A DNA stretch of 36,922 nucleotides from a virus, in IMG/VR virus record IMGVR_UViG_3300032238_001159, positions 1-36,922 of that record, one strand, 5' to 3'. Under the pieces are notes generated by a model. It was not told the DNA's origin. It worked only from the letters and a program-made list of their open reading frames with translations, and searched no databases. This document shows, one piece after another, positions 4,870 to 26,057 of this stretch (positions within the stretch are counted from its first letter, which is position 1; each line of letters opens with the position of its first letter). Both the position numbers and the translations under genes were made by a program.

Positions 4870-5736
4870 TTAGTTTAATTTAGTCAAATACTTAGACATA
4901 TCCATATTCAAGATTGTATCAACAACATCCCTTGGTATACGGTATTCTTTGAATTCTAAGTTTTCATTCAGGTGGACAATAACTCCACCCATTAAAGGAA
5001 TATTTCCATACTTGGTCCCTTCTAACATTTTTAATAATAACTTACCATAAAAAGGTAATTGTGTGTTGTAGTGACCAAGGGCATTGTTTGGGAGTTTTTC
5101 AAAAGGTTTTTTCATTGGTTTTGTGTAGTCATTTACCTCCATGTTTTTTTCCTTGTTTGTTTTCCAATCCGTAATTACAATACCAAACCCAGTTTTTTGT
5201 TTATTAAACATTAACCAAACTTTATCGGGCTGACCGGTATAACCAAGTTCAGGGTGACCTAAAACAATCTCCGTATCAAGTAAAACAGCTCCTCGTTCTT
5301 CCATGAGTGACAAAAACTTTTTACCGGCTTTTATCATTCTATCACCTTTCATAGTAAGTTCTAAATCGCATTCAAACAATGGTTGTCGAACCTCTTTATC
5401 TATTTTGAATTTGTTAATCGTTTCTAATTCAAGTTCATAGTGTACCCTACTACCCATATTTGTTGAAACTATACCTGATTGTTTCCACTCTTCTAAATAA
5501 GTGTGCATTAAATATGGACTACCTTTAGCCAATTTTCTTGCAACATCCTCAGCAGGAAACTCATCATAAAACAATTTCATTACTTTCGATACAGATGGAA
5601 AATCGTCTCTTACAACACCATTCACATCTAACATGGTGTATTTGTGTTTATCTTCCTCAAAAGTTAATTGAAACTCTTTTTGTTTTTCGGATATTATATC
5701 TCGTATTTCTTTTGCAACTTCTTTTAAATCTATCAT
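4870..5736 (-). CDS. PD-(D/E)XK superfamily nuclease (RecB/Cas4-type fold)
   Basis: A 288-residue predicted DNA exonuclease. The motifs run in the order usual for the Cas4/RecB nuclease branch: GSRVHYELE (His99 with the following acids), an acidic residue in DTEIVLG (Glu156), QPDKVW (Asp171), ITDWKTNK (Asp190, Lys192) and QLPFYGKLLL (Gln226, Tyr230). No Cys cluster is present, so there is no Cas4-type iron-sulphur site. The start ATG at 5736 overlaps the TGA of the primase gene (ATGA), linking it to replication. In phages such nucleases process replication or recombination intermediates or degrade host DNA; which applies here cannot be told. Confidence 0.85.
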   Translation of the reverse strand: MIDLKEVAKEIRDIISEKQKEFQLTFEEDKHKYTMLDVNGVVRDDFPSVSKVMKLFYDEFPAEDVARKLAKGSPYLMHTYLEEWKQSGIVSTNMGSRVHYELELETINKFKIDKEVRQPLFECDLELTMKGDRMIKAGKKFLSLMEERGAVLLDTEIVLGHPELGYTGQPDKVWLMFNKQKTGFGIVITDWKTNKEKNMEVNDYTKPMKKPFEKLPNNALGHYNTQLPFYGKLLLKMLEGTKYGNIPLMGGVIVHLNENLEFKEYRIPRDVVDTILNMDMSKYLTKLN

Positions 5737-6650
5737 TTAAATTCTACATAATAATTTTCAATGTCACCTTTAAGGTCACATACATCTTTATCTTTTGGTA
5801 ACTTTATTAACTTAACTCTGTTGTATAAAGCGCCTCCGTTTAGTTTGTCATATAGGTTTTTAGCATCAGTATAAGCATCACCATCTAAACAAACTATAAT
5901 ATTTTTCTTTGCCTTTGAATATAGTTTTTCCCAAAGGTTATCTGTTAAAAACTTACCTAATAAACAAATTGAATTGTCCAAGAAGAAACTATCAAAAACT
6001 CCTTCAACAAGGTATATGTCTTTTTTCCAATCAATTAAACTCTCATTGAAAATTAAAAAGTCTTTTGATGCTTCAGGGTTTTTATATTTTAATTTACTTC
6101 GTGGGTTCCATGACCTTGATACAAAAAAGTTTAATTCACCTTTTTTATCAAAAGATGGGACAATAATTCTACCAGCGTATTCACCTTCTAAACATAAACC
6201 AATTTGATACTTTTCAATAATCTCATCAGTGATACCTCTTTTTTTCAAATAGTTAAGTGCTTCTTTTCTTGGAATATGAAGTGGATGTATCTCGTCAAAC
6301 TTTTTGTATTCTTTTGGTAGTTCAAGTTTCTTGTAAACCTTTTCTTTCTTTTCAAACTCATCAGGTCTGATTAACTTATAGATTTTCTTATCTTTTTTGG
6401 AGCCAAACTTATCTATAAGTTTTCCTAAATGCCCATGAGTCCCATGTGTTTCTGCACAAGCCCAACACTTGTAAACGTGTTGTTGGTAGTTGATTTCAAG
6501 ATTTCCTTTTCCGTCTAATTTATCAAGTCCTTTAATGGTGTATGAGCACACAGGACAATCAACCGAGATTTGTCCTCTGATTTCATTTATCATCTTTGGC
6601 TCACCAAAAATATTACCAATAAGGTCTATGATTAACTCTTCTGCTTCCAC
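5733..6650 (-). CDS. DNA primase: zinc-binding domain plus TOPRIM domain
   Basis: A 305-residue primase of the DnaG/T4 gp61 type, which makes RNA primers at the replication fork. An N-terminal zinc-binding domain has CPVC (Cys32, Cys35) and CWAC (Cys62, Cys65). A linker leads to a TOPRIM core with YLVEG (Glu216) and LDGDAY (Asp256, Asp258), the metal-binding acids. No helicase domain is fused. The frame has no ATG near its start; GTG at 6650 is chosen because the preceding in-frame stop is close and the N-terminal helix (EELIIDLIG) looks genuine. The next ATG, at residue 20, is the alternative. A terminator and a candidate promoter lie just upstream, so this gene probably opens the replication/recombination operon. 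Confidence 0.88.
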   Translation of the reverse strand: MEAEELIIDLIGNIFGEPKMINEIRGQISVDCPVCSYTIKGLDKLDGKGNLEINYQQHVYKCWACAETHGTHGHLGKLIDKFGSKKDKKIYKLIRPDEFEKKEKVYKKLELPKEYKKFDEIHPLHIPRKEALNYLKKRGITDEIIEKYQIGLCLEGEYAGRIIVPSFDKKGELNFFVSRSWNPRSKLKYKNPEASKDFLIFNESLIDWKKDIYLVEGVFDSFFLDNSICLLGKFLTDNLWEKLYSKAKKNIIVCLDGDAYTDAKNLYDKLNGGALYNRVKLIKLPKDKDVCDLKGDIENYYVEFK

Positions 6651-10186: not shown

Positions 10187-11788
10187 CTACGCTGATGGTG
10201 ATGCTGGACATATAGTTCCTGTTTTATTTATTTGGGTTTTTTGTGGTGTAACATTTTTATTTATGAATGTACACGTATTTGGTGTAAGTCCAATATTCTG
10301 AATTGAAACACTATCAACTATAAATCCATTCAAGGCACATAATCCTCCACTTACACATGGTGTGTTAACATATTGAACTATTGTTCCTGACGCAACTCCG
10401 TTATTAGTTAATTGGACATTGTATGATATTGTTTGAGCACTTGTATTAACAAATCCTCCCGTACAACCCGGTCTTGGGGTACTAGTACCTGTTATAACCG
10501 AACTTGATAATGGGGTAACTGTAGCGTTTGGTGTTGTATTTGCCGTTATTGAATTTGTTATTGTTGGTTTTATTGTTGCCGATGCAGTATTTGCAGTATA
10601 ATTAACATTAAATGTAACTTTCATATTAACAGTCGCACCTGTAGGTAATGAAGGTGAAACACTAATAGACCAAGTTGTTGTTCTACTTGTAGCTGTCCCA
10701 TATGTTTGTTGCATCCCTTCATTTAAATTCAAACTAACTACATAGTTTTGAACACTCTGTTGTGGCGTTAATGCTTGTGATGATGAATTTGTTGTTCCAA
10801 CGGAATCTTTAATATATACAGTATATGTTCCGACACCTAATCCCGCAAATATATTAGACACTTGGTAATTTACACCATCCAAAGAATATGTATAAGGACC
10901 TACTCCTCCGCTTCCCGTTACAATAATAGAACCGTTACTTTGTGTAGAACATAATGGGTTAGTTGCATTTAATTTTAGTTTTAACACCGCCGAAGAACAA
11001 GAACCACTACTTACAAACATAGTCGTAGTAAAGGCGTTTGGTCCCGTTACCGTCCAATTTCCTGTTGGTGGTGATAATGGTGATTGTTTGAACACCGAAC
11101 CATTAGTATACCCACTCAAAATCCATTTAGTCGTCCCACTATTATAATAGATTTTATAACTTGGTGTTGCACTTGTCCAAGTCATATAACCATTAAGTGT
11201 TCCTGCAGAATAAAAATTAATTAATGTTGAAGTTGTGTTAACAGTTTGATTTAAACAAAGTCCACTTGGTATCACAGGTACAGGTGCTGGTGGTGGTAAA
11301 CATTGTGTACAACCTGTGAATGGTCCAGATGATACGGATGCAAAATTATTAATATACGTTTGACCCGTATAAAGTGTTGTTCCACTACTTGTCCAACAAC
11401 CTACTTGTGTTGATAAACCATAAACGGTACCAGCTGAGAATGGGTTGTAAATGTCAGCCAAATAATAAACAAATGAATTAGAATTAGAACAATCTTGGAA
11501 TTTCTCTAAATAAAAACTATCATAACTAACAACACATGTTGTTGTTGCACTAAAATCACCATAATAATCAACAACCGTTGCTGTGTAATTACCCGGTGAT
11601 AAATTAGTTAATAATGTTCCTTGTCCACCATTGTTCCAAGTTACGTTATATGGTGCGGTTCCACCTGTTATGTATAATGATATTAAACCATTTGAAGTTT
11701 CAGGTGTAGAACTATTAACAGAATTACATTCAACCCCCAAAGGAAACAAAGTTATTATATTACAACTATTACCACTCAACTGTCCCAT
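10187..11788 (-). CDS. tail protein with two SprB-like repeats
   Basis: A 533-residue probable tail adhesin. Two SprB-type beta units are visible. One is at about residues 20-75 (GLISLYITGGTAPYNVTW, then LSPGNYTATVVD); the other at about 280-335 (CSTQSNGSIIVTGSGGVGPY, then LGVGTYTVYIKD). Between and after them are Cys-containing, Ser/Thr/Asn-rich beta segments with a Pro stretch (PPPAPVPVIP, about 165-175). No signal peptide or membrane segment is seen. The ATG at 11788 overlaps the preceding stop by one base (TAATG). SprB repeats are known from the Flavobacterium gliding adhesin and related surface proteins; a role in host attachment is inferred from the fibre context. Confidence 0.72.
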   Translation of the reverse strand: MGQLSGNSCNIITLFPLGVECNSVNSSTPETSNGLISLYITGGTAPYNVTWNNGGQGTLLTNLSPGNYTATVVDYYGDFSATTTCVVSYDSFYLEKFQDCSNSNSFVYYLADIYNPFSAGTVYGLSTQVGCWTSSGTTLYTGQTYINNFASVSSGPFTGCTQCLPPPAPVPVIPSGLCLNQTVNTTSTLINFYSAGTLNGYMTWTSATPSYKIYYNSGTTKWILSGYTNGSVFKQSPLSPPTGNWTVTGPNAFTTTMFVSSGSCSSAVLKLKLNATNPLCSTQSNGSIIVTGSGGVGPYTYSLDGVNYQVSNIFAGLGVGTYTVYIKDSVGTTNSSSQALTPQQSVQNYVVSLNLNEGMQQTYGTATSRTTTWSISVSPSLPTGATVNMKVTFNVNYTANTASATIKPTITNSITANTTPNATVTPLSSSVITGTSTPRPGCTGGFVNTSAQTISYNVQLTNNGVASGTIVQYVNTPCVSGGLCALNGFIVDSVSIQNIGLTPNTCTFINKNVTPQKTQINKTGTICPASPSA

Positions 11789-12730: not shown

Positions 12731-14335
12731 TTATCTACAATTTCCGTTTACTGTACAGTATTGAGTTATTTTTCCACTTGTATCTACACGATAAATAAGG
12801 TTTCCGTATTGAACGTAATCTTCAACTATTGGTTTAGTTAATGATGAGTCTTGGAATATATATACATCTGTCGCAATCTCTTTAACCAAATTAGATGTAT
12901 AGAATGTTAATTTTTTACCAAAGTCTGTTATTTGACATTTAGGACAGTTAAGTGCGAACCCTCCTGTACCTTTCCATGCGTTATAAGTTAAAGTTTGTGC
13001 TGTCACTGTTAAACAATCAATACAATCTGTGTATGTCGTGGCGGTAGTTGCCGTAAACTGATTAACGTTTGCTACTACATAACCTGACGGTGCAACATAT
13101 CCAACATAATTTCCAACATAAGTGTAACAATCACCTGACGTTGTTTTCAATACATTTCCAATCGTAACATTTGTTGGTGGATATGCTGTCTGTGTAATCA
13201 TACTATTAGTAGTACAAGATGTGAATACAAATACAGTTCCAGGTGCAAATGTTGGAGTAGGTGTTGGAGTAGGTGTTGGTGTTGGAGTAGGTGTTGGTGT
13301 AGGTGTTGCTGTAGGTGTTGGTGTAACACACGATACCGAACAAGCTCCTGTATATGCTGAAATAATATATTGAACCGTAGCATTTGCACTACCATTAATA
13401 TCTCTTGTGTAGGTAGCACATCTGATGTCATTATTTATAACACCATAAATTGTTGTTCCTGTTGTTGTTACCGTTGTTGCGGTAGTACCAGTTAATAATA
13501 ATGCTCCACTAACATAGAATACCGTTCCATCATTACAATCTACTAACTCTTTAACTGTTGAACATACAAAGTTTCCATTATCTACAATAAAAGTAACAGT
13601 ATCTGCAGAAGGTGTTACTGTTGGAGTAGGAGTAGGTGTTGGAGTAGGTGTTGGTGTAGGTGTTGGAGTTATAGTCTGATAATATATTTCAGCAGTGAAT
13701 CCACTACAAATATTTGCAGTTGGAGTTGGAGTCGGTGTTGGAGTTGGAGTCGGTGTAGGTGTCGGAGTTGGGGTTGGGGTTGCAATATTACACTCCAATA
13801 AAACATCAAAATCTAATGACGCACATGGGTCAGTTGGTGTTGGTGTTGGAACACAAGTACCAATAGACATCACCGTCTCATCTAAATCAGGACAAAGTGA
13901 AAAAGTTGGGTTTGAACCAAAGAATATACAAGTCCCACCTAATGAACTACTTAAACACCAATTAATACCATTATAATGTATGTATCCGGTATTTGTTGTT
14001 CCTCCTGTCCAATATGGATATGAATTATATCCCCCTTTTATTGTATAAGTTCCCGAATAACCACTATATAGTGTTGTTGGAGTACTTATGCATAATGTAC
14101 TTGAGCAGCAAGCAATACAAGATGGGTCATTACAAGATGAACCTGATGTTGCGGTTCCGGTAACCGTTGTTGATATTGTACTTGCGGTAACTCCTGTTAC
14201 AACTTTATAACACCCGTTTGGGATATTTGTATCACCGGTAATAACATAAACTGTATTTGTTGCAGCCGTGACTGGAAAAGTCGTGGCACTAAACACAAAA
14301 TTATAACAACAACTACTAAAAACTACATTTGCCAT
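12731..14335 (-). CDS. Cys-rich fibre protein with Thr-Pro tracts
   Basis: A 534-residue probable tail-fibre or decoration protein. Globular Cys-rich beta modules are joined by (Thr-Pro)n tracts at residues 163-168, 186-206, 223-242 and 338-363. The first module has CC pairs (Cys9-Cys10, Cys76-Cys77). The last module (about 365-534) has [24 protein letters not shown] and a short [15 protein letters not shown] strand. Thr-Pro tracts act as stiff extended linkers, and their Thr residues could be glycosylated; two glycosyltransferase genes lie directly upstream. The ATG at 14335 follows a 44-base A/T-rich gap. The same kind of linker is present in the 1119-residue protein. Confidence 0.72.
13247..13324 (-). 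repeat. (Thr-Pro)n coding tract, longest of several
   Basis: Low-complexity DNA encoding alternating Thr and Pro (residues 338-363 of the 534-residue protein). It is built from ACT/ACA and CCA/CCT codons, so the DNA is a hexamer-like repeat. Similar tracts lie at 13610-13669 and 13718-13780 in the same gene and at about 23058-23108 in the 1119-residue gene. Antisense frames through these tracts read (Gly-Val)n and are shadows. Confidence 0.85.
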
Positions 14336-14379: not shown

Positions 14380-15177
14380 TTATAATCCCAACTCAATTTC
14401 ATTTGGTTGGTAGTTATAAAAATGTTTGTAAGCGTGAATGAAAGCAACGTTTGGTTGTTCTTCCATAGGGATTGACCACCCTGTCTTGTCCCACCAATTA
14501 CCGATATCTCTAGTGTCATATTGCGCCCAATCTTCCCAAAAACCACTTGTATACCCAAAAAACTGAAATAAAAATGAAAGTGTAGCGTCACACCATTCAA
14601 TTGGTCTTGAATCTAACCTGTAGATTTCATCCCAAGGCACCTCATCTAATCTATTGTATATTTCTATAAATTTTTCTCTATTAAATATTGTTCCACCACA
14701 TGCTCCATAACTTTTTAAAGAACCTAAAAGACTCCAATTATGTCTTGAGTCATCAATAACTCCAAACTTGTTTTTTAAATATTCATAAAGTTCTGGCGTA
14801 TATAATGGTCCGTTTGCCCCTGATATGTCAAACTTTGGTGGTCTTGTAATTTCAAATCTACACCACACATCATCTTCATAATGAATAACCCAATCAACAT
14901 CTTTAAGTGTTGTTGTACAAGCATCATAGATTCTTTTTAACCAATCCAATTGTCCGTTCTCTTTTACAAATACTCTTCCTGAATGTGGATGGTTAATGCC
15001 TTGTTGTTCAATCCATGTGTAATCACAATTAAATTTTTTGGCAACAGGTTCCAATAATGTTGACCCATCTTCATATAATGCAACAGGTATGTTTGGATAA
15101 ACTTTTCTTAATTGTTCTAATGCTTTATAACAAGCAACCAACTTATGTCCTGATTGGTAAAATGCTCCTATATTCAT
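14380..15177 (-). CDS. GT-A-like glycosyltransferase candidate
   Basis: A 265-residue protein that looks like a small nucleotide-sugar transferase. It opens with a Rossmann-like strand and helix (NIGAFYQSGHKLVACYKALE) and a second strand ending in YEDG. VDWVIHYEDDVW follows at residues 94-105, whose E-D-D is the likely DxD metal/nucleotide-sugar site. GACGGTIFNREKF (about 158-170) fits the acceptor-loop region of GT-A enzymes. Asp and Trp residues are abundant in the C-terminal half. Its ATG overlaps the stop of the GT60-type gene (ATGA), so the two are translated together and probably act in sequence on one glycan. The sugar and acceptor are not predictable. Confidence 0.68.
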   Translation of the reverse strand: MNIGAFYQSGHKLVACYKALEQLRKVYPNIPVALYEDGSTLLEPVAKKFNCDYTWIEQQGINHPHSGRVFVKENGQLDWLKRIYDACTTTLKDVDWVIHYEDDVWCRFEITRPPKFDISGANGPLYTPELYEYLKNKFGVIDDSRHNWSLLGSLKSYGACGGTIFNREKFIEIYNRLDEVPWDEIYRLDSRPIEWCDATLSFLFQFFGYTSGFWEDWAQYDTRDIGNWWDKTGWSIPMEEQPNVAFIHAYKHFYNYQPNEIELGL

Positions 15178-16370
15178 AATAATATATCTTGTCTATTAAC
15201 CCACTCTCCGTTTATGTTATTAACCCAATAAACCCATTTATGTGGTTTTTCATATGCTTCAATTTTTATTTTTACTTTTGGTGTGTGATTTCTTAAATCT
15301 TCTCTATGTAAAACTGTACCTTCTTTATCTTCAATCCCTATATAAATAAAATTAAAGTTTTCGGCATATGGTATATCTAATTCTAAATCAAAAACTTGTT
15401 TTTGTTTTAAATACCATTCAGTTTCATCATTAATAGGTGGATTAATTCCACTAATGGTATCGTCGTGTAATCTTCTTTCTTTAAAGTTAATTCCGGCATA
15501 AAGTTCATAATCTCTATGTGTTCTAACATTTCCTAATCCATATTCACCTAAGTCAATGTTGTTATCTTCTTCTTGTAACATATGTCTTAGTCTTCTTTTA
15601 GATTCATTATCCATTTCCCACCAAGGTTTTTCAACAACACCTGTATTTAAATTTTCATTATTGAAGTCTGTCCAATGTTTTGTTCTACCTTCTCTTGTGT
15701 ATTCATGCCACACAACAGTTTTATGTGGATGGAATAAATCATAACCCAATGTAAATGAACGAATAGCTAAACTAATTTCATCTCCAGCAAAATAAATGTT
15801 CGGGTCATACTTGTATTCTTCACAATGTTTTCCGATTGTAAAAAAGAAATGTCCGCTGACAAATCTTGCAGGGATTGGTTTATCTAAATTTTGCCAATTT
15901 TCAATTGTATGTGGTCTAAAAAGAATTGTTCCTCCTGGTGTGAAGTTTGATGCAACCATTTTATATGGTTCAACATTTAATAATTGATTATCGCTTGGTC
16001 TATACATACCAGCATATGATGTAATAATTGGTTTTTCTGAACCTGTCATTTTTATCATTTCAATTAATTCGGTATCCCAATCTTGTAAAAATCTATGATG
16101 TGAATCTAATTGAAGTGTGTATTCTTCATCTTCCCATAATTTTTGGATTTCTGAACGAGCCCAACACAATCCTTTACTCTTTGACCAATGGTAATCTAAG
16201 ATTTTGAATCTTGGGTCATTTGCAAATTCTTCCATTGATTCATTTTCATCTCGTTGCCAACAAATTCCAAATGTTAAATTTTCGGGATGTTTTGCTTTTG
16301 AAATACAGTCTCTGATTGTCGGTAAAAGTTCGGGGTCTCTATAAGACGCAATTTGAACAAATATTTTCAT
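15174..16370 (-). CDS. GT60-type (GlcNAc-transferase family) glycosyltransferase
   Basis: A 398-residue enzyme matching the glycosyltransferase (GlcNAc) family, whose best-known member adds GlcNAc to hydroxyproline of Skp1 in Dictyostelium. Family signatures are at the start: IFVQIASYRDPELLPTIRDC (3-22), AKHPENLTFGICWQ (26-39), then LQLDSHHRF (87-94) with Asp89-Ser-His91 in the DxD position, and ITSYAGMY (116-123). Later come FAGDEISLAIRSFTLGYD, with a likely catalytic acid, and HEYTREGRTKHW. The C-terminal 120 residues form an extra beta-like domain. No signal peptide is present, so it acts in the cytoplasm, where virion proteins are made. It follows the Ser/Thr/Gly-repeat fibre gene by 45 bases, and that fibre is the likely acceptor (inference). 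Confidence 0.82.
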   Translation of the reverse strand: MKIFVQIASYRDPELLPTIRDCISKAKHPENLTFGICWQRDENESMEEFANDPRFKILDYHWSKSKGLCWARSEIQKLWEDEEYTLQLDSHHRFLQDWDTELIEMIKMTGSEKPIITSYAGMYRPSDNQLLNVEPYKMVASNFTPGGTILFRPHTIENWQNLDKPIPARFVSGHFFFTIGKHCEEYKYDPNIYFAGDEISLAIRSFTLGYDLFHPHKTVVWHEYTREGRTKHWTDFNNENLNTGVVEKPWWEMDNESKRRLRHMLQEEDNNIDLGEYGLGNVRTHRDYELYAGINFKERRLHDDTISGINPPINDETEWYLKQKQVFDLELDIPYAENFNFIYIGIEDKEGTVLHREDLRNHTPKVKIKIEAYEKPHKWVYWVNNINGEWVNRQDILL

Positions 16371-16415
16371 AAGTTTTTTTCTTTATGATAAGTTATAACC
16401 ATAAAAAAACAATAC
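16371..16415 (-). other. 45-base gap between fibre and glycosyltransferase genes
   Basis: A/T-rich, with a T7 run just after the fibre stop and an A-rich leader (AAAGAAAAAAACTT) before the ATG. A 5-bp TTATG/CATAA inverted repeat is too weak to call a terminator. No motif shared with other gaps is seen. Confidence 0.25.
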
Positions 16416-19076
16416 TTAACCTATTTGTTGGATAATCATTGCAGTGTTCAAATCAGACCTAATCTGTTCACCACTTAAAGCATTTGTACTATTAGTGGTT
16501 TTAATCTTAACATCAATCGTATTAGTTACCGTATAGATAAAATCTAAATAACCATTTGAAATGTTATTAGTACTGTTTGTTGATTGTATCATTTCAACAG
16601 TAGGGCCCAATTGATTGTTTGAGCTATCGTAACAAGAAAATTGAATCGTGTATACTGCTGCCGCCTGCCAAGCAAGTTGAGCGGTAATTCTATATACACC
16701 AGGAGGTAAAGTCGCTCTACCTGTACTTGTGTTATAAGTAATTCCCTTTGAGGTGACAGTGTTATTAAATATAATGTCGATATTGGCCCATGTACCACTT
16801 CCAATTGTTTGATTAGTGGTTAACCTTGTAACATACAAATATCTCCATGGCGCCAAATTAACACCAACAGAAGTATCTAAATCAGTAATATCTATATAAG
16901 CACCTCTAGCAGACCCACCTTGTTCAAATATACGATATCTATTTTGATAAACATCAATACTAACACCTGTTCCCGAAATTGAAGAGTTAGTTACCGGTTT
17001 ACTCATTAACATTTCGCCACCTTCATCTCCAGATTGATACAACAATCTTAATGTTGACCCGTCATATGTTAATGTAGATTCAACCGTAGCATTTGGTGAT
17101 GTGCCGTTTAGTGTTATTAAACCATTATCTGTGGACCCTAATAACACTAATAAACCACTTGACCCTGATGTACCTGAGCTTCCGCTAGTTCCCGAAGAAC
17201 CGCTCGACCCTGATGTTCCACTTGAACCTGATGTTCCACTTGAACCTGATGTTCCACTTGAACCTGAGCTACCACTAGTACCCGAAGAACCGCTTGAGCC
17301 AGATGTTCCGCTACTTCCACTAGAACCTGAAGAACCACTTGAACCAGATGTTCCACTTGAACCTGAAGTACCTGAACTTCCTGATGAACCTGATGAACCA
17401 CTTGTACCTGAAACTCCTGAGGAACCTGAACTACCTGAAGAACCACTTGAACCAGATGTTCCTGATGAACCTGAAGTACCCGAAACTCCTGATGAACCAC
17501 TTGAACCTGAACTTCCTGAAGAACCTGAGCTTCCGCTAGTTCCACTTGAACCTGAGCTTCCGCTAGTTCCTGAACTTCCTGATGAACCTGAACTTCCTGA
17601 TGAACCACTTGAACCAGATGTTCCTGAAGAACCACTTGAACCTGATGTACCATTAATACCCGAACTACCTGAAGAACCTGATGCACCTATAACCGAAAAA
17701 CTAATAGAATATTCTCTATTATCTTGTAAAGTACCATTAGATACTAATGTATTATTTGTAGTGAAAATAAAATTATCGGTATCAGCAGATGATGATGTTA
17801 AATCCCAACTACCTAAAATGGTATTATCATTAACATTTGTAATTGTTATATATACATTAGATGCTACCATTTTAGTTAAGAATGTCGTATAGTCATTCAT
17901 AGTAGCACCTGTTTTAGATATTCTAATAGCGGTAATAGTAGATAAAACAGGACTATTAGTTATAAAATCACCTGCAGAAATAGGACCCGGTAAATTGTAA
18001 TACCAACGTCCACTTAACGCACCATCAACACCACTTACACCTGAAGTTCCTGAATTTCCCGATGTTCCACTTGAACCCGACTCACCATTTAGTCCTGAAC
18101 TACCACTTGAACCTGAGGTTCCACTTGTTCCGTTTAAGCCTGAACTACCATTACTTCCGTTTAAACCAGATGAACCTGAAGTCCCATTAAGACCTGAAGA
18201 ACCTGATGTTCCATTTAGTCCTGAACTACCTGATGAACCACTTGAACCTGACGTTCCATTCAGTCCTGAAGAACCTGATGTTCCACTAGTACCGTTAGTT
18301 CCTGTTCCACCTGTTGTTGGCGCCCAACTTGCATTACCACTTGAATCTGAAGTTAAAACATAACCGTTAGTCGCTCCCGATGTCATTTGGAAATTAATAG
18401 TTTTTGTTTTACCATTAACATCCACTTTTTCAGTTGGGTTTGTGGTTCCAAAACCTACATTTCCTCTTGTTGAACCTGAACCTTGAATGTGAATATCAGG
18501 AGTTGTGCCGTTGGCGTCTTGTCCTGCATAAAATCTAATATAATCTTCGGTTCCTGTTCCCTGTCTATTAATTATATTTAAACCGTTTGCTTCATTACTT
18601 GCATAAATAAAACCATCACCTATTTTACCATAACCAGGATTAGATACGTTATCCCAACTTCTCATCCCCATCTGCATTGAAGCAGTAGGGTAAGTCAAAT
18701 AAGGTGATATTGATGCTTGATAAATTGGTAAGGATGTAAATCCAGATATTATAATCCTACCTCCAAGTTCATTAGGATTAACATACATATATGCAGTGCT
18801 ACCTGTAATTGTTCCACCTGAAAGTGGTAAATATAAACCACTTCCTACCCCACTAGTTCCACTTGTTCCATTTGTTCCTGATGTACCGGCAGTTCCAGCA
18901 CTACCCGAACTCCCTGTTGCTCCGGTAATAATATTTGCTAATTGTCGGATTGTAGCTTTATATGATGAACCCGCAGGATTTTGTGACGTATCACCTGTTA
19001 TTACTATATGAATTAAATCATTAAGGGTAACACCTGTTGCTAAGGTTCTATCGGTTAGTCTATTATAAGTTGGCAT
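16416..19076 (-). CDS. collagen-like tail fibre with a C1q-like C-terminal domain
   Basis: An 886-residue fibre. In order: an N-terminal attachment segment (1-50, LTDRTLATGVTLNDLIHIVI); a short Gly-x-y run (51-79); a globular part ending in NVGFGTTNPTEKVDVNG and GATNGYVLTSDSSGNASW (207-251), a module common in Bacteroidota-phage fibres; a Gly-x-y block (254-352); a beta insert (353-463); a long Gly-Ser-Ser/Thr block (464-641); then a second shaft part and a C1q/TNF-like jelly-roll (about 750-886, with YNTSTGRATLPPGVYRITAQ). C1q-like heads after Gly-x-y shafts trimerise in known proteins. The repeats contain almost no Pro and are dominated by Ser, Thr and Asn. It ends 45 bases before the glycosyltransferase pair, likely its modifying enzymes. 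ATG 19076 follows TATTTATA by seven bases. Confidence 0.85.
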   Translation of the reverse strand: MPTYNRLTDRTLATGVTLNDLIHIVITGDTSQNPAGSSYKATIRQLANIITGATGSSGSAGTAGTSGTNGTSGTSGVGSGLYLPLSGGTITGSTAYMYVNPNELGGRIIISGFTSLPIYQASISPYLTYPTASMQMGMRSWDNVSNPGYGKIGDGFIYASNEANGLNIINRQGTGTEDYIRFYAGQDANGTTPDIHIQGSGSTRGNVGFGTTNPTEKVDVNGKTKTINFQMTSGATNGYVLTSDSSGNASWAPTTGGTGTNGTSGTSGSSGLNGTSGSSGSSGSSGLNGTSGSSGLNGTSGSSGLNGSNGSSGLNGTSGTSGSSGSSGLNGESGSSGTSGNSGTSGVSGVDGALSGRWYYNLPGPISAGDFITNSPVLSTITAIRISKTGATMNDYTTFLTKMVASNVYITITNVNDNTILGSWDLTSSSADTDNFIFTTNNTLVSNGTLQDNREYSISFSVIGASGSSGSSGINGTSGSSGSSGTSGSSGSSGSSGSSGSSGTSGSSGSSGTSGSSGSSGSSGSSGSSGVSGTSGSSGTSGSSGSSGSSGSSGVSGTSGSSGSSGSSGTSGSSGTSGSSGSSGSSGSSGTSGSSGSSGTSGSSGSSGTSGSSGTSGSSGTSGSSGSSGTSGSSGTSGSSGLLVLLGSTDNGLITLNGTSPNATVESTLTYDGSTLRLLYQSGDEGGEMLMSKPVTNSSISGTGVSIDVYQNRYRIFEQGGSARGAYIDITDLDTSVGVNLAPWRYLYVTRLTTNQTIGSGTWANIDIIFNNTVTSKGITYNTSTGRATLPPGVYRITAQLAWQAAAVYTIQFSCYDSSNNQLGPTVEMIQSTNSTNNISNGYLDFIYTVTNTIDVKIKTTNSTNALSGEQIRSDLNTAMIIQQIG
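17154..17687 (-). repeat. long (Gly-Ser-Ser/Thr)n coding repeat
   Basis: About 59 consecutive Gly-x-y triplets (residues 464-641 of the fibre), nearly all GSS or GTS with a few GVS and one GIN. The DNA is a degenerate 9-base-like repeat, open in other frames too; those frames read Val/Gln- or Pro/Glu-rich nonsense. A second block at 18021-18317 has GLN, GTS and GSS triplets, and a short one lies at 18840-18926. Such arrays may vary in length by recombination and are prone to assembly collapse. Confidence 0.92.
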
Positions 19077-19103: not shown

Positions 19104-19388
19104 TTATTGGAACACATTAATGTCTCCATCCATGAAAATAAAAATATTCGCATCTTGGAACGCATATAATCCACATTCTAATAAATATAATTTCTCACAT
19201 AAAGTGCCGTCTAAAATTTTAAGATATACCGCAGGTGCATAAGGAAAAAAACTATCGGTATCAAAAACAACTGAAGGTGGTATTGATGTGACTCCTGTTA
19301 CAAAAAAACAAGCAGTATTATTTGAATCACAAACATAAATGTTGTAAGGACTTGTTCCACTTGTTATACCCGTTATCGTTACTAACAT
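19104..19388 (-). CDS. small Cys-containing tail protein, mini-SprB-like (second of a tandem pair)
   Basis: A 94-residue protein. Core pattern: TSGTSPYNIYVCDSNNTAC (about residues 9-27), a Ser/Thr/Val-rich middle, then YLKILDGTLCEKLYLLEC (about 54-71) and a hydrophobic tail. It shares SGTSPYN, VCD and the following Cys residues with its upstream neighbour and with the N-terminus of the 313-residue protein. The pattern recalls a single SprB repeat (GGTPPYTYxW...VxDxxGC). The frame opens at TTG 19394, but ATG 19388 is preferred; it overlaps the previous stop by seven bases. Probably a small virion or fibre-cap protein; no function is proven. Confidence 0.65.
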   Translation of the reverse strand: MLVTITGITSGTSPYNIYVCDSNNTACFFVTGVTSIPPSVVFDTDSFFPYAPAVYLKILDGTLCEKLYLLECGLYAFQDANIFIFMDGDINVFQ

Positions 19389-19672
19389 ATCCAAAGAAGT
19401 CTGTCTCCACTTTCTGTGGTTATTATAAGTTCTGTTTCTGTCAATATATAGAATGTTTCACCTTGACAATAAACATATTTGAAGTTGATGCAACCTGTAC
19501 TATCAACAACCTTAATTAAAAGGACGTTAGCACTTGAAAAAAATGTATTTAGACTAAATGTCCCACCGGTTTGACCCAATAGAAAACAATTATTCATGAA
19601 TTCATCACATACATAAAACTGATAAGGAGGTGTTCCTCCTGTCTCCCCCGATATGATTAGTTGTGATGACAT
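19382..19672 (-). CDS. small Cys-containing tail protein, mini-SprB-like (first of a tandem pair)
   Basis: A 96-residue protein. Core pattern: GETGGTPPYQFYVCDEFMNN then Cys (about residues 9-29), a Thr/Ser/Phe middle, then LLIKVVDSTGCINFKYVYC (about 51-69) and a short C-terminal strand region. The frame extends upstream to TTG 19681, but ATG 19672 overlaps the stop of the SprB-repeat gene by one base (TAATG), the usual junction here, so it is the chosen start. It sits between the 1005-residue SprB-repeat protein and its own paralogue. It looks like one SprB-type unit released as a separate protein. Confidence 0.66.
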   Translation of the reverse strand: MSSQLIISGETGGTPPYQFYVCDEFMNNCFLLGQTGGTFSLNTFFSSANVLLIKVVDSTGCINFKYVYCQGETFYILTETELIITTESGDRLLWIC

Positions 19673-22600
19673 TAAGGGCAAGTTTGAACATTTGTTATTG
19701 CCCCTGAAGCATCAATTTGAATTACATATTTTGTACCATACGTATATCCTGAATAATAACCAAAACCAACTGGTACGGGGGCATAATAAACAGAAATCCA
19801 CTTATTATTTCCATTAACTAAATTAGTTCCTGTCGCACCTGAGTATACTGTAGAACCAACATTAATAGTTATACCACTATTAATTAGTCTATATGATGTT
19901 TCATAAGTTATGTTGTTACATGCATCACCACTTGTTGTTGCTGAAATTGTATTACCTCCAATCAAATTTTGACTGCCGTAATCAGGTGCAGTATATCTCC
20001 ATCTTAAAAATGAAGAACCACTTCCTGGAGGTCCAATAGTTGACCCTGAACTTGAATTCAATATTTCTAAATAATGTATCTTTTGACCGTAAACTCCGGT
20101 ATATGTCGTTGCACTTGATATAACATTTAAAGTTCCAACTCCTGAACTGTTTGTTGATGCCGTAAATGTGTTAGCACTATATTCATTGTAATTAATTCCA
20201 TTCACTGATGTTCCACCAGAAAGATTAATTAAATTTAATAATGACATTCTCATTGTTAGAATCTCATTAGGTGCTCCTGAATATGATATAGTTCCCGTTT
20301 CAACACCGGGTGCAGGCCATAAACCACCACCTACGTTAGCAAACGATGTAGATGTAAATAAAGCGGAGTATGTTGGTACAGCAGGAGGATATACGTATCC
20401 AGAACAGGTTACATCATAAACTATATTAAGACCTAACGTAAATTCAGCATCTCCAAGTGGGTCATTATCCCCATCACAATTTGAAAGTATTGTTAGAGTA
20501 TTGTTTAATAAATCGATATTATAACTTTGTATTTGACTAATATTAGACAAAATACTTTCGATTGTTGATTGCCAAACAGTATCTTGAGGAACGTCATTTA
20601 AGGTTGTTGCAGTATAGAATGTTTGTGTGAACGCACTTCCGTTGATGTCTATTTCACAAGTTAGTTCAGCAGAATTAAACGAACACCCCGTATAACCTGA
20701 TGTTATATCCAAATAACCCTCATTCAACATTTCAATTAAACCTCTTTGACCTCCTGATGTTGTTGTAAATGTGTTAGTACAAAGATTAAAAGTTTGGTAT
20801 GAATTAAGTAAATTACCAATACAACTTATTACTACATTTTGTGTTTGTGTACAACCTGACCCATCGGTAATTGTCACAGTATAATTACCTTCACCTAAAT
20901 TAGTTAAAGTTGAACCTGTTGAACCATTTGACCAAGTATATGTGAATGGTGGTGACCCGTCGTAAATTTGAACTTGAGCGGCACCATCATTTGAACCCGT
21001 GCAGTTTGTGGTAACAATACCAGTAATTAAACTACCTCCCGTTGTGATTGTAAAACCTGTGGAAACTACACATCCATCGGCATCGGTAACACTTATCGTA
21101 TATGACCCAGCAGCTAAATCTGTGTAGGTTACTGATGAAAGTGGTGAATCAATTAAAGTGTCACCATTACTTAAAATATAATCTAAAGGTGCCGTATAAC
21201 CCGTACCAACCGTAATAATCGCTTCACCATTTAATTGACCACATGTAGAACCTGTGGTCGAAGCGCTTATTGTAAATTTAGGTGTCGATGTTACGTTTAC
21301 CTGTTCTGTATAAACACAACTACTACCACTACCTGAAATCGTTACAAGATAAGTGTCTGTTTGTAGGTTTGAAAATGTGTAAGTTTGACTTTGACTATTT
21401 TCTGATTGAACATTTCCTGACGTTTGTCCTGATAATGTGAACACATAAGATTGATTGGCTCCACCAACGGTAACTTGTATTGCCCCTCCGTTTGCATTAC
21501 AAACAGGATTTGTTGTTGATATACTTACAGTGTCAAAACCTCCTGGAGTTGTTACGTTACCACCAACCATAACTTCACAATAACTCGCATCTCTTACTAA
21601 TACTTGGTAATTACCTGCACTTAAGTTTGGAATTGTAAATGTGTTGTTGAGTGTGTAACTTACGTATCCTGTCGTTGCTGAATAGTAAAAAGGTAAAGTC
21701 CCCCCTGTTATCGTGAAAGTTAAAGAGCCATCATTTTGAAAACATGTTGGTTGAGACGCGGTTAAAAACGCTAAACCTAATGGGTCAGCAACACCGATAG
21801 TTTCACTTTTAGTTGTTTGACAACCAAGACTATCAGTCACCGTACAACTATAAATCCCCTGAGTTAATCCCGTAATGATTTGAGATGTTTCACCATTACT
21901 CCACGAGTAAGTGTATGGTCCCGTTCCTGTAACACCAGTAACAGCTAATTTACCCCAATTTAATGTACAATTAGACGTATTTACCTTCCAAAACCCAAAA
22001 TTAACGGCAGTACTTGTACTTATAATCGCGTTTTCTGTATATGCCGTAGCTAATCCATTATCGACAACCATAGCATAATATATACCATTACCTAAGTCTG
22101 TAAAATTATGTGGAAAAACCGTTGCAACTTCTGTTGAGTCATAAACACCATTTTTATATAATAGTATAGTGTATGGTGACCCTGACGTTGCGGCACTTAC
22201 TTGTAAAAATCCGTTATTTACTCCACAAGTAGTTCCACTTGCATTAAATATTTTAGCATCAAAACAACCACTTACAGTTACGTTGATGTACAATTCATTA
22301 TTTTGTATTCCTTGTGAATCGTTTAATCTAAAAACATACGTTCCACCCGAAAGTCCTGAAAAAGTAATTTGTGTTGTTCCTGTTTGAGCACTTATTGTAG
22401 CATCAAAAACATTATCAATAGTATATGGTGGAACCCCACCAATAGGGTTAAATTGGATTGTACCTGTTGCTGCTGAACATACACCAGTTAATGAAAAACT
22501 ATAGTCAAGGTTTCCTTGATTACAATTTAAAGTACAGGTTTGTCCTGTTGCGATGTATACACCAATTGACGACCCTGTATATGTTTCGTCCAAACAAATG

Positions 22601-22689
22601 CTTTCTCCAACAGACGCACCTGTTCTTGTGAAACCACAACAATCTATGTATGAGTATACCCCGTTAGTTAAACCTGAAACACAAGCCAT
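19672..22689 (-). CDS. large tail adhesin with seven SprB-like repeats
   Basis: A 1005-residue virion protein. N-terminus: a Cys-rich segment (1-60, DCCGF, CTLNC). Seven SprB-type repeats follow, at about residues 70-125, 153-212, 239-290, 313-371, 394-458, 480-540 and 561-613. Each has Cys...G.....GG..PY.Y...NG, then nL..G.Y.v.V.D..GC; repeat 7 is the clearest (SPPFTYTWSNGSTGSTLTNL, GEGNYTVTITDGSGC). Residues about 649-762 form a domain shared with the 1119-residue protein. The last 240 residues are Gly/Ser/Asn-rich beta with few Cys. SprB repeats are known from gliding and adhesion proteins of Bacteroidota. A phage tail made of them suggests a host-binding fibre built from host-like modules. 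It starts eight bases after the 1119-residue gene. Confidence 0.82.
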   Translation of the reverse strand: MACVSGLTNGVYSYIDCCGFTRTGASVGESICLDETYTGSSIGVYIATGQTCTLNCNQGNLDYSFSLTGVCSAATGTIQFNPIGGVPPYTIDNVFDATISAQTGTTQITFSGLSGGTYVFRLNDSQGIQNNELYINVTVSGCFDAKIFNASGTTCGVNNGFLQVSAATSGSPYTILLYKNGVYDSTEVATVFPHNFTDLGNGIYYAMVVDNGLATAYTENAIISTSTAVNFGFWKVNTSNCTLNWGKLAVTGVTGTGPYTYSWSNGETSQIITGLTQGIYSCTVTDSLGCQTTKSETIGVADPLGLAFLTASQPTCFQNDGSLTFTITGGTLPFYYSATTGYVSYTLNNTFTIPNLSAGNYQVLVRDASYCEVMVGGNVTTPGGFDTVSISTTNPVCNANGGAIQVTVGGANQSYVFTLSGQTSGNVQSENSQSQTYTFSNLQTDTYLVTISGSGSSCVYTEQVNVTSTPKFTISASTTGSTCGQLNGEAIITVGTGYTAPLDYILSNGDTLIDSPLSSVTYTDLAAGSYTISVTDADGCVVSTGFTITTGGSLITGIVTTNCTGSNDGAAQVQIYDGSPPFTYTWSNGSTGSTLTNLGEGNYTVTITDGSGCTQTQNVVISCIGNLLNSYQTFNLCTNTFTTTSGGQRGLIEMLNEGYLDITSGYTGCSFNSAELTCEIDINGSAFTQTFYTATTLNDVPQDTVWQSTIESILSNISQIQSYNIDLLNNTLTILSNCDGDNDPLGDAEFTLGLNIVYDVTCSGYVYPPAVPTYSALFTSTSFANVGGGLWPAPGVETGTISYSGAPNEILTMRMSLLNLINLSGGTSVNGINYNEYSANTFTASTNSSGVGTLNVISSATTYTGVYGQKIHYLEILNSSSGSTIGPPGSGSSFLRWRYTAPDYGSQNLIGGNTISATTSGDACNNITYETSYRLINSGITINVGSTVYSGATGTNLVNGNNKWISVYYAPVPVGFGYYSGYTYGTKYVIQIDASGAITNVQTCP

Positions 22690-22697
22690 TTTTTATA

Positions 22698-25600
22698 TTA
22701 ACAAATTACGTATCCGCTACCAGTGTTTTGGATGTTTATGTAGATAAGGTTTGAACCACTAACTACTGTATGTGTATTGTACGAACTAATCCCACAATAA
22801 CCTGTATAAATACCACTATTGTTACCGCTACCAAATGTGATATTATTAAATGTCGAATTTAATACTCCAAAGTCAATAACACTACCAACAACCATAGAAG
22901 TCCCATAAGGTTGGTAGTTTTGGAAAGTAGATGGTTTGTTACCAACAGTTTGACCATTTAAATAAGTCCAAACCCCACCATTAACTCGATAAACAAATGA
23001 TACGTTAGCCGGCGATGCAACAGGTGCTCCAAAATAGAAATTAACCTCAGAATAAACCGGTGTTGGCGTCGGTGTTGGTGTTGGCGTCGGTGTCGGTGTA
23101 GGAGTTTGAGTTGGTTGTGGTGGTGTACAATTTATATCTATATCAATACCAATATTCAAGTATAAAGTACTGGTTGAGAAATTATCGTAACAAGATGAAT
23201 TACTTACAATTAAAGTATTACCTGCAAAGTAATAATTTAAACCGTAGTTATATAAACCTGCAAGTTCAGTATCTAAAGCATTAATTAATTGAGTTTGTGT
23301 TGGGTAATCATTAATACCGTATCCCGTATAGAATTGTTCTTGAACTAATATTTGTGAATCCAATCTACAATCAACATACCAATTAGAAACAATACTATTC
23401 AAGTCACACATGTTTTGTGTAAATCCACTTTGTGCCAATAAACTTGATAGTAAGGATTGAATCATTTCTGAAGGTGACCCTTGAATAGTACAAGTGAGTG
23501 TTTGGTCTATGCAGTCGTAAGCAAATGGTTGCCCTGTGTATTTACAAGGAATACAAGCCACAGGAATAATTTGACAACCTCTTTGTCTTCTCCAAACATA
23601 TTTTTGTCTATGGAAAATAGAGTTTTCCATTTTTTGTCCTGTTAACCACAATGACGTACCAGGAACCATTTGTTCCAATAATCTTTGCCAATAATCACCA
23701 AGTCCCAAAGTGTAATCAATCATTTTTTGGTAAGTGAAGTTGTTGTTTGGTATACCTACCGTTTGTTCTGATTGTAAATAATTCCAAAATACCGATTGTA
23801 ATGTAGGATATCCTCCTGTTTTACCATCACTTATTGTTTGTCTGTTTCTTACATTTATAAAATTGTTATAAAAAGTTTGAGCAAACTCAAAGAAAGTTTT
23901 TTGTTTTGGTTTTGGGTCAATATGTGTCCAATCTATATTACCAGGATACGGATAAGGTGCTGTTAATCCAGAATTAGGAATTGGGTAATCGTACTTAACC
24001 GACATATCCCATACATCATATGTAATACCTTGACCCATATTCATATAAAGTTCAAGGTTTTTAGAATTAATTACTAACTTATCATTAGATACTTTATAAT
24101 CTACCCCATTAAAATTTGTATCAACTTTTCTAGTACCTACATCATTAACAACCCAAGATTTTTGATTATCAGAAACTCGTCTAAGTGTATATCCGACATC
24201 CATGTCTTCAAACTTTCTAAGACCATTCATATATTCTTGTCCAAAATTAAATGGTGCAATTTCAGTTACTAAAAAAGGATTAGACCCACTGAACTGTGAA
24301 TTTTCAACATCAACAGTTTCAACTGAACGGTGTTTTGGACTTTTTTCAAACCAACCCGCCCCTTTTTGAAAGAAGTTTGTATCAGTTTGTTGAGGACTTT
24401 TTGGATACCCGTCACTATCGATACCATAATCAGCCAAACTCGTATTAACTAATTTTAACAAACCACTACTAGTGTATCCTGTATATTCTACACCTTGTAT
24501 TTTGAAGACATTTGTTCCGTCTAATTCTGCGTTTGTTACAAACTTTGTACCACCAGAAATTTGTGCATATTGTTCATTAAATTTATCTACATTAATTTTA
24601 GCATCCGCAACATATACAATTTCATTAAATTCTAATAACGCATCAGGAGCGCCAATAAATCTCATTACATATTCTAAAGATTGTCTAGTACCTTTAGTTT
24701 TATACATGTAAGCAGCATTAAGAATTAAGTTTCTATAATATTGGTAATTTAATTCTGTAGGTGTAAGTGTCTTTTTTTGTCCTTCATAAATTTGTTCTGT
24801 ATTTGAATTAAAAACAGAATTTAAAAAGTTTTCATTAGTGATTGGTGAGATATTTGGATTAATACCTAATGTCTGTGCTAAATTAGTAAGTAATTGTGAT
24901 GGTATGTCATTTCCAACTTGGTAATTCACTGAGTTGATGTATGCCAAACTATCTATGAATTTTTTAACCTCATCAAAACTTCTTCCATAAATTTGTAAAA
25001 CTTTTTCAACTTTTTGGTCGGTGGTGTCAAATTCTTTAAATGAACCTGTTATTAAAAAACGACTAATTAAGTTTGTTTTATACTCATCTAATTTTTCTGC
25101 AGCTAATTGCAAATCGTCCAAATATCTATTAAATAGTGAACTTGTTATATCTAAGTTCCAAAACTTATTTAATGGCCAAGTAACACTAGTGTTGTATAAT
25201 GTTGATTTACCATTACTATCATAATCAGGATAACTAAATTTAGCAGTGTATAAAGGTGCACTATTTTGATTCAAAAGAAATTTTTCAACCTCATCAAAGG
25301 CGTCTGTAAAAATTTCTTGTGTTTTAATATTATTTGGTTTTATAACTAACGACCTAGTAGTTGCAGTAGCACCACTAAACGGATTCCCACTAACAGTCAT
25401 AGTAACCGAACCTCCACTGACACTAACCGTTGGTTCAAAGTCAGTTAATGGATATTCAACATCCAAAGTATCAAAATACAAAGCGTAACTTTCATATTTA
25501 GAAGTTAATGCCCTAATTGGGTGTATTGGGTATGGTCTTACTTCAATATTTCTTTCTGCATTTTCAGAAAAATCAATTTCAAATGGATTTCTAAATAATA

Positions 25601-26057
25601 CACTATCCATACTAAATGTGGTCTCGTCATTAAGAGAACTATATGATATATTGTAAGCAGTTTGTCCTGTTAATAAACCTGATTGGTGGACAGCTATGAC
25701 TTCAATGGCTGCCGGAAAGTTATTAATTATTTTAATTGCCGACGCTGAAAGTCTTTTTGCTAATGAACCATATAATGAAAAACTTGTTACTTCTGATAAA
25801 TCATAATTAGGATAAACTTTAAAGTTTTTTTCTATTATTCTTTTAGCCTCGGCTAAATTACCTATTTTAAGATTTTCTAAAGTGTATGCTTCTGAAAAAA
25901 CACCAGTATCAAAATTCCTGTTAGTCTTTTCGTATATAGCACTAGTAAATTTAAAATTTCCTTGTGTAAGACCACCTGCATCAGTAATCTGAACTCCAAC
26001 AAGATTATCTGCGAAAGTATTAGTTCCAATAGGTGGGTAGAAAATTTTATTTGCCAT
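22698..26057 (-). CDS. baseplate/fibre-connector candidate with a Thr-Pro linker, 1119 residues
   Basis: A large structural protein. Residues 1-830 are globular and not Gly/Ser-rich, unlike the neighbouring fibres. The region 436-482 (YYRNLILNAAYMYKTKGTRQ, then IGAPDALLEFNEIVYV) recalls the KGT segment of tail protein I-type baseplate proteins that join fibres to the baseplate; this is a modest resemblance. A helical segment precedes it (310-400). Then come a Cys cluster CIPC (835-838), a domain at about 864-977 shared with the adjacent SprB-repeat protein, a (Thr-Pro)n linker (984-1000) and a C-terminal beta domain of about 118 residues. The ATG at 26057 overlaps the previous stop (TAATG). 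By position it may anchor the SprB-repeat fibre. Confidence 0.72.
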   Translation of the reverse strand: MANKIFYPPIGTNTFADNLVGVQITDAGGLTQGNFKFTSAIYEKTNRNFDTGVFSEAYTLENLKIGNLAEAKRIIEKNFKVYPNYDLSEVTSFSLYGSLAKRLSASAIKIINNFPAAIEVIAVHQSGLLTGQTAYNISYSSLNDETTFSMDSVLFRNPFEIDFSENAERNIEVRPYPIHPIRALTSKYESYALYFDTLDVEYPLTDFEPTVSVSGGSVTMTVSGNPFSGATATTRSLVIKPNNIKTQEIFTDAFDEVEKFLLNQNSAPLYTAKFSYPDYDSNGKSTLYNTSVTWPLNKFWNLDITSSLFNRYLDDLQLAAEKLDEYKTNLISRFLITGSFKEFDTTDQKVEKVLQIYGRSFDEVKKFIDSLAYINSVNYQVGNDIPSQLLTNLAQTLGINPNISPITNENFLNSVFNSNTEQIYEGQKKTLTPTELNYQYYRNLILNAAYMYKTKGTRQSLEYVMRFIGAPDALLEFNEIVYVADAKINVDKFNEQYAQISGGTKFVTNAELDGTNVFKIQGVEYTGYTSSGLLKLVNTSLADYGIDSDGYPKSPQQTDTNFFQKGAGWFEKSPKHRSVETVDVENSQFSGSNPFLVTEIAPFNFGQEYMNGLRKFEDMDVGYTLRRVSDNQKSWVVNDVGTRKVDTNFNGVDYKVSNDKLVINSKNLELYMNMGQGITYDVWDMSVKYDYPIPNSGLTAPYPYPGNIDWTHIDPKPKQKTFFEFAQTFYNNFINVRNRQTISDGKTGGYPTLQSVFWNYLQSEQTVGIPNNNFTYQKMIDYTLGLGDYWQRLLEQMVPGTSLWLTGQKMENSIFHRQKYVWRRQRGCQIIPVACIPCKYTGQPFAYDCIDQTLTCTIQGSPSEMIQSLLSSLLAQSGFTQNMCDLNSIVSNWYVDCRLDSQILVQEQFYTGYGINDYPTQTQLINALDTELAGLYNYGLNYYFAGNTLIVSNSSCYDNFSTSTLYLNIGIDIDINCTPPQPTQTPTPTPTPTPTPTPTPVYSEVNFYFGAPVASPANVSFVYRVNGGVWTYLNGQTVGNKPSTFQNYQPYGTSMVVGSVIDFGVLNSTFNNITFGSGNNSGIYTGYCGISSYNTHTVVSGSNLIYINIQNTGSGYVIC

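Follow-up and report, generated by a model that had tools for sequence, protein, structure and literature searches.

The window that we analysed, a whole 36,922-base fragment of virus DNA (IMG/VR record IMGVR_UViG_3300032238_001159), encodes a glycosyltransferase of family GT60 and a second glycosyltransferase directly upstream of a protein with long Thr-Pro tracts. We think it fairly probable that the phage uses these enzymes to O-glycosylate this protein on its own virion in the fashion of a mucin, with extender enzymes that are swapped between relatives. The arrangement on which this proposal is built is a conserved gene order, GT60, an optional second glycosyltransferase and the Thr-Pro protein. 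A phage glycosyltransferase is thus genetically tied to a structural-type protein, whose structural role is suggested by its position. Glycosylation of a virion by its own phage is already known; what would be new here is the combination of a GT60 starter, a Thr-Pro acceptor and an exchangeable extender.

The two glycosyltransferases and the Thr-Pro protein

The genes of interest all lie on the minus strand, so that transcription runs from a Gly-Ser/Thr fibre gene through GT60 and the second enzyme to the Thr-Pro protein. The features are as follows.

16416..19076, minus strand: collagen-like Gly-Ser/Thr fibre, 886 amino acids; variable upstream neighbour and alternative acceptor
15174..16370, minus strand: GT60-family (PF11397) polypeptide-type glycosyltransferase, 398 amino acids; proposed initiating enzyme
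16098..16106, minus strand: DxH metal motif of GT60, Asp89-Ser90-His91; DxH is the GT27/GT60 variant of DxD
15180..15398, minus strand: C-terminal all-beta domain of GT60, residues 325-397, as given by the secondary structure of the model only
14380..15177, minus strand: second glycosyltransferase, GT-A fold by its model, nearest to GT6 (blood-group A/B type), 265 amino acids; optional, exchangeable slot
14869..14877, minus strand: candidate metal/nucleotide-sugar motif EDD, residues 101-103 of the second enzyme
12731..14335, minus strand: Thr-Pro-tract protein, 534 amino acids with 116 Thr and 28 Cys; cysteine-rich segments joined by three Thr-Pro linkers
13721..13780, minus strand: Thr-Pro tract 1, (TP)10
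13622..13669, minus strand: Thr-Pro tract 2, (TP)8
13253..13306, minus strand: Thr-Pro tract 3, (TP)9, with mixed synonymous codons

The initial annotation of this DNA had described the same four genes in this order, with an ATGA overlap between the two enzyme genes and long Thr-Pro tracts in the last of them. The order, the overlap (TTATTATGAAT) and the tracts were all found in the sequence. Its assignment of the first enzyme to GT60 also held: the protein matched the PF11397 profile with 224 bits (cut-off 21, E 4e-66) and phrog_24687, 'glycosyltransferase', over its full length (E 1e-106).

The AlphaFold model of the GT60 enzyme had a predicted local distance difference test (pLDDT) score of 93.9, and when it was compared with the PDB the first 47 matches were all polypeptide N-acetylgalactosamine (GalNAc)-transferases of family GT27 (E 1e-11 to 2e-8). 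Asp89-Ser90-His91 was invariant across 43 GT60 homologues from phages and bacteria. The DxH motif and the O-glycosylation of Ser/Thr in polypeptides are common to GT27 and GT60 (PMC7185993). Because the model matches GT27 first and the DxH motif is invariant, the acceptor of the GT60 enzyme is likely to be a protein, and this family and fold evidence would make Thr-rich, Pro-rich linkers a natural form of acceptor. It had also been stated that GT60 enzymes act on cytoplasmic proteins, which is too narrow: Dictyostelium Gnt1 acts on hydroxyproline of cytoplasmic Skp1, and Trypanosoma cruzi TcOGNT1 makes N-acetylglucosamine (GlcNAc)-alpha-Thr on mucins in the Golgi, which is then extended with galactose (Gal) and galactofuranose (Galf) (PMC9472816, PMC8724618). 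Matches to GT60 in the phages collection came only from XacN1, CM1 and RAS14.

The second enzyme gave no sequence match in Pfam, PHROG or the PDB, and in the phages collection it had one weak match, in a Synechococcus phage. A PDB sequence search with profiles of both enzymes likewise found no relatives. The AlphaFold model of the second enzyme (pLDDT 87.7) matched GT6 transferases, which made up all of the listed top 50 PDB matches (E ~1e-8, template modelling score ~0.5, 12-14% identity), and for this reason its earlier description as GT-A-like is supported by fold. Because a family match at the sequence level is absent, we use only the name 'GT6-like', which refers to the fold of the model, and do not call the enzyme GT6. 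Its EDD motif was invariant in 22 homologues.

The Thr-Pro protein matched no Pfam or PHROG family, and no homologue was found in the phages collection. Each of its tracts is spelled with several Thr and Pro codons. We rejected the possibility that the tracts are a DNA microsatellite, since the mixture of synonymous codons argues for selection on the protein. The linkers stood in the same positions across 23 aligned homologues; in five of these the third linker was shorter and was followed by an inserted domain. The position of its gene suggests that the Thr-Pro protein is structural and borne on the virion.

Conservation of the locus among relatives

We clustered 61 homologues of the Thr-Pro protein at 90% identity, which gave 40 clusters. 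GT60 adjoined the Thr-Pro protein in 34 of them: directly in 11, by way of a GT6-like gene in 11, by way of HtrL_YibB in 10 and by way of GT34 in 2. Two other clusters had a longer sugar-gene cassette that included GT60, so that in 36 of the 40 GT60 was either a neighbour of the Thr-Pro protein or part of its cassette, and four had a reverse-strand GT29 gene, with GT60 absent from the contig examined. A transferase was present in every cluster, and the Thr-Pro linkers were kept in all 40, being more interrupted in two (L172 and L187). When the comparison was anchored on GT60 instead, the Thr-Pro protein was the next gene, or the next after one intervening gene, in most loci.

Relatives thus had a GT6-like, HtrL_YibB or GT34 gene, or no gene at all, in the slot that separates GT60 from the Thr-Pro protein, and one of the longer cassette variants included UDP-galactopyranose mutase. 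At locus L187:520-5903, glycosyltransferase-like genes, a methyltransferase-like gene, HtrL_YibB and UDP-galactopyranose mutase lie between GT60 and the Thr-Pro protein. At L156, L159, L161 and L171 (near 5330-5920), the reverse-strand gene of the sialyltransferase family GT29 takes the place of GT60 beside the same Thr-Pro protein.

The initial annotation had proposed that a virion protein is O-glycosylated by an initiating and an extending phage enzyme, and that the acceptor is the Gly-Ser/Thr fibre. Structure and comparative genomics strongly support the first part; the choice of acceptor is probably wrong. The fibre is as rich in repeats as had been claimed, with 103 Gly-Ser/Thr dipeptides, 86 G[ST][ST] triplets and 101 Gly-X-Y triplets in three runs:

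17148..17687, minus strand: longest Gly-X-Y run, 60 triplets
18015-18302, minus strand: Gly-X-Y run, 32 triplets
18843-18923, minus strand: Gly-X-Y run, 9 triplets

Its longest G[ST][ST] run was 28, compared with at most 3 in 500 shuffles, so that the Gly-Ser/Thr content is far beyond chance, and it matched Pfam Collagen (E 2e-39). In favour of the fibre as acceptor, it lies directly upstream of GT60 in the window, and in other systems collagen-like proteins with Gly-X-Thr repeats, among them Bacillus BclA, carry glycans on Thr. However, a Gly-X-Y stretch of at least 24 amino acids was found upstream of the cassette in only 7 of the 40 clusters, and the gene upstream of GT60 varied freely, from 82 to 1624 amino acids, often without a Gly-X-Y repeat, whereas the Thr-Pro protein was the constant neighbour with or without a second enzyme. 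The order kept in related phages is that of GT60, the optional second glycosyltransferase and the Thr-Pro protein, and not the expected fibre, GT60 and second glycosyltransferase. The acceptor should probably be moved from the fibre to the Thr-Pro protein.

Independent scans for the two kinds of repeat

IMG/VR was scanned for codons of (Thr-Pro)6 and, in a second scan, for eight Gly-(Ser/Thr)-(Ser/Thr) triplets. Both samples were chosen without regard to GT60, PF11397 was then run against the contigs in full, and all figures are those among the matches listed. GT60 was found on 12 of 64 contigs with in-frame (TP)6 and on 1 of 78 Gly-Ser/Thr contigs (p = 6e-4); when the family of the window itself was left out, the counts were 9 of 61 and 1 of 78 (p = 0.005). 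Some of the contigs are related to one another, so that independent events are fewer than the contig count. On the sole GT60-positive Gly-Ser/Thr contig, GT60 directly adjoins a Thr-Pro-rich protein of 643 amino acids (29% Thr, 14% Pro, 66 [TS]P dipeptides). With this result added to the conservation data, we regard it as unlikely that the fibre is the acceptor, either alone or together with the Thr-Pro protein. In the opposite direction, (TP)5 was present on 7 of 16 GT60 contigs outside the family and on 1 of 50 Gly-Ser/Thr contigs (p = 1e-4).

One candidate, contig G054, was dropped from the in-frame count of Thr-Pro contigs, as it encodes an antisense (Gly-Val)n protein. This protein (L473:3333-5540) has long tracts of (Gly-Val)n as well as PASTA-like segments, ends in a Hint/intein-like part and adjoins a divergent GT60 gene.

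The link between GT60 and Thr-Pro proteins might be mere hitchhiking, with both of them frequent in the variable region of large phages that encodes adhesins. Genes are gained especially often in adhesin regions, and Thr-Pro tracts are found in other proteins of these phages too, for example in a 1119-amino-acid protein of the window. However, the Gly-Ser/Thr contigs almost never carry GT60 even though they amount to more sequence than the Thr-Pro contigs (4.6 and 3.6 Mb in total, respectively), and adjacency to GT60 recurs with Thr-Pro proteins of other sequence, in the unrelated loci L445/L457, L446, L472 and L474. Such hitchhiking is in our judgement very improbable.

Several observations nevertheless weigh against glycosylation of the Thr-Pro protein by GT60. 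The four GT29 clusters keep their Thr-Pro tracts without GT60 on the contig examined, so GT60 is not strictly required for the tracts. About 80% of the Thr-Pro contigs among the matches listed were without GT60, no (TP)5 tract was present on the GT60 contigs L015, L024, L026, L036, L050 and L056, and some bacterial GT60 homologues were without Thr-Pro neighbours. Because GT60 and the tract are far apart on some contigs, the distance from GT60 to the nearest tract was only modestly below that of random placement (independent contigs, combined p = 0.04). HtrL_YibB and UDP-galactopyranose mutase, both found in the cassettes, occur in host polysaccharide pathways too. Finally, the GT60 genes of XacN1 and RAS14 lie near genes for DNA polymerase, RNase H and carbamoyltransferase.

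The last two points bear on other substrates. If the transferases modified host surface glycans, lipopolysaccharide (LPS) or capsule, they might for example exclude other phages; the slot genes HtrL_YibB, GT34 and UDP-galactopyranose mutase are of kinds known in polysaccharide loci, and a role in host glycans was proposed for the glycosyltransferases in the tail-fibre region of pelagimyophages (PMC7029224). By contrast, both the fold and the motif of GT60 indicate polypeptide acceptors; moreover, the genes around the cassette form a tail/adhesin block, and across the 40 clusters the cassette keeps its link with a single structural-type protein. We hold modification of host glycans to be improbable, slightly more so than glycosylation of the fibre.

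Modification of phage DNA would agree with the setting of GT60 in XacN1 and RAS14, and DNA-modifying phage glycosyltransferases are well known. An enzyme of the thymidylate-synthase family, a family that includes base hydroxymethylases, was found in three large relatives, but none was present on the contigs of six other large relatives, which are possibly fragments. Moreover, the GT60 fold is that of polypeptide transferases, and the genes adjoin fibres and Thr-Pro proteins. A DNA substrate is, of all the readings weighed here, the most improbable.

Proposed mechanism and its significance

In the mechanism that we favour, glycosylation of the Thr-Pro protein, GT60 would attach the first sugar to Thr residues of the linkers in this protein, whose gene lies shortly downstream. 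By the precedent of its family, the sugar would be alpha-GlcNAc or another N-acetylhexosamine (HexNAc), donated by a uridine diphosphate (UDP)-sugar. The second GT-A enzyme in the slot would add a further sugar, and the reactions would take place in the cytoplasm during assembly. Linkers glycosylated in this way would be stiff, extended and protease-resistant rods with a changeable, sugar-presenting surface. As the slot enzyme differs among relatives, the same protein would bear different sugar coats, and exchanging this enzyme would alter the coat without any change of starter or carrier protein. We conjecture that the benefit would be shielding, attachment or escape from proteases.

More tentatively, many large phages of several lineages may produce true mucin-type (HexNAc-alpha-Thr) glycoproteins in the cytoplasm of bacteria, from a conserved Thr-Pro linker protein, a single conserved starter of the protist-mucin family and a swappable extender that alters the coat between close relatives. 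If so, O-glycosylation of the mucin type, known above all from protists and animals, would have a place in bacterial viruses, and the slot would give phages an equivalent of antigenic variation or of variation in lectin specificity. Glycosylation of virion proteins by phage-encoded enzymes has been proven in few phages, and phage glycosyltransferases are usually guessed to act on DNA or LPS. Here the candidate acceptor, the Thr-Pro linkers, can be named from comparative genomics, the chemistry of the enzyme family on peptides is known, and relatives with different genes in the extender slot amount to a natural experiment on variation of the glycan.

Comparison with known systems

The GT60 enzymes of protists (T. 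cruzi TcOGNT1 and Dictyostelium Gnt1) and the GT27 polypeptide GalNAc-transferases are the closest counterparts of the window's enzyme: it shares PF11397 with the GT60 enzymes, DxH with both families and its closest fold with GT27, and among their substrates is Thr of mucin-like sequence, on which the chain is lengthened afterwards with Gal or Galf. The window's enzyme differs in that it is phage-encoded, would work without a secretory pathway and has a C-terminal all-beta domain, and its acceptor and donor are predicted. In bacterial spores, a Gly-X-Thr repeat protein lies beside a glycosyltransferase in Bacillus BclA and Clostridioides difficile BclA3/SgtA systems, whereas the Gly-X-Y neighbour is not conserved among the relatives of the window.

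The glycosyltransferases of mycobacteriophages Che8, Corndog and Myrna decorate the phages' own structural proteins, according to Freeman et al. 2023 as cited in PMC12619734 and PMC12363180. The acceptors given there are the C-termini of capsid and tail-tube proteins, whereas in the window the acceptor would be a protein of the adhesin block with Thr-Pro linkers, GT60 would act as the starter, and the second enzyme is exchangeable.

The cultured jumbo phage XacN1 of Xanthomonas encodes a GT60 (ORF334) that is 38% identical to that of the window. Its giant ORF325, which has Thr-Pro tracts between short repeats, is an acceptor candidate, but it lies ~9 kb from ORF334 and is not adjacent to it as in the window. 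At least two glycoproteins were detected in XacN1, and the authors suggested that glycosyltransferases of the phage itself had modified them; the main text does not assign these glycoproteins to ORF325 (PMC5852040). Our literature search for virion glycosylation with GT60 enzymes found none beyond XacN1.

Genomic setting and further observations

The cassette lies in a block that begins with a Baseplate-J-like gene and continues with large adhesin-like proteins, the fibre, GT60, second-enzyme and Thr-Pro genes, and then DNA-metabolism genes (primase, exonuclease and RuvC-like). Other features of the window are as follows.

35666-36616: Baseplate-J-like gene, at one end of the block
22698-26057, minus strand: 1119-amino-acid protein upstream of an SprB-repeat adhesin
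23058..23105, minus strand: (TP)8 tract within the 1119-amino-acid protein
19672-22689, minus strand: large SprB-repeat protein
10187-11788, minus strand: large SprB-repeat protein

The 1119-amino-acid protein may be a second acceptor. SprB repeats are typical of Bacteroidota adhesins, and their presence in two large proteins of the window suggests a host of this phylum. Because relatives were found on contigs of up to 292 kb, the window and its relatives are probably large phages. This bacterial virus is probably of freshwater origin. Moraphages are large freshwater phages of Bacteroidota with four core groups of glycosyltransferases (PMC12619734); the window resembles them in the size of its relatives and in its suggested host, a likeness of traits and not a placement in their lineage.

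A scan of the cassette region for promoters and terminators gave a signal no higher than in shuffles. Immediately before the fibre is a pair of genes of ~95 amino acids each (19104-19394 and 19382-19681, minus strand), without a family match, and the pair recurs there in many relatives.

In bacteria, GT60 genes were seen near baseplate-like or VgrG-like Thr-Pro-rich genes (L100, L102, L115 and others), in metagenome-assembled genomes (MAGs) of Sphingomonas and in Paraburkholderia, where the neighbour of the GT60 gene (L115) is VgrG-like. It is possible that parts of contractile injection systems are glycosylated by such bacterial GT60 enzymes. In another bacterial MAG (L093:5986-9039), a GT60 gene is followed by a small, exported-looking protein with Thr/Ser-Pro repeats at its end.

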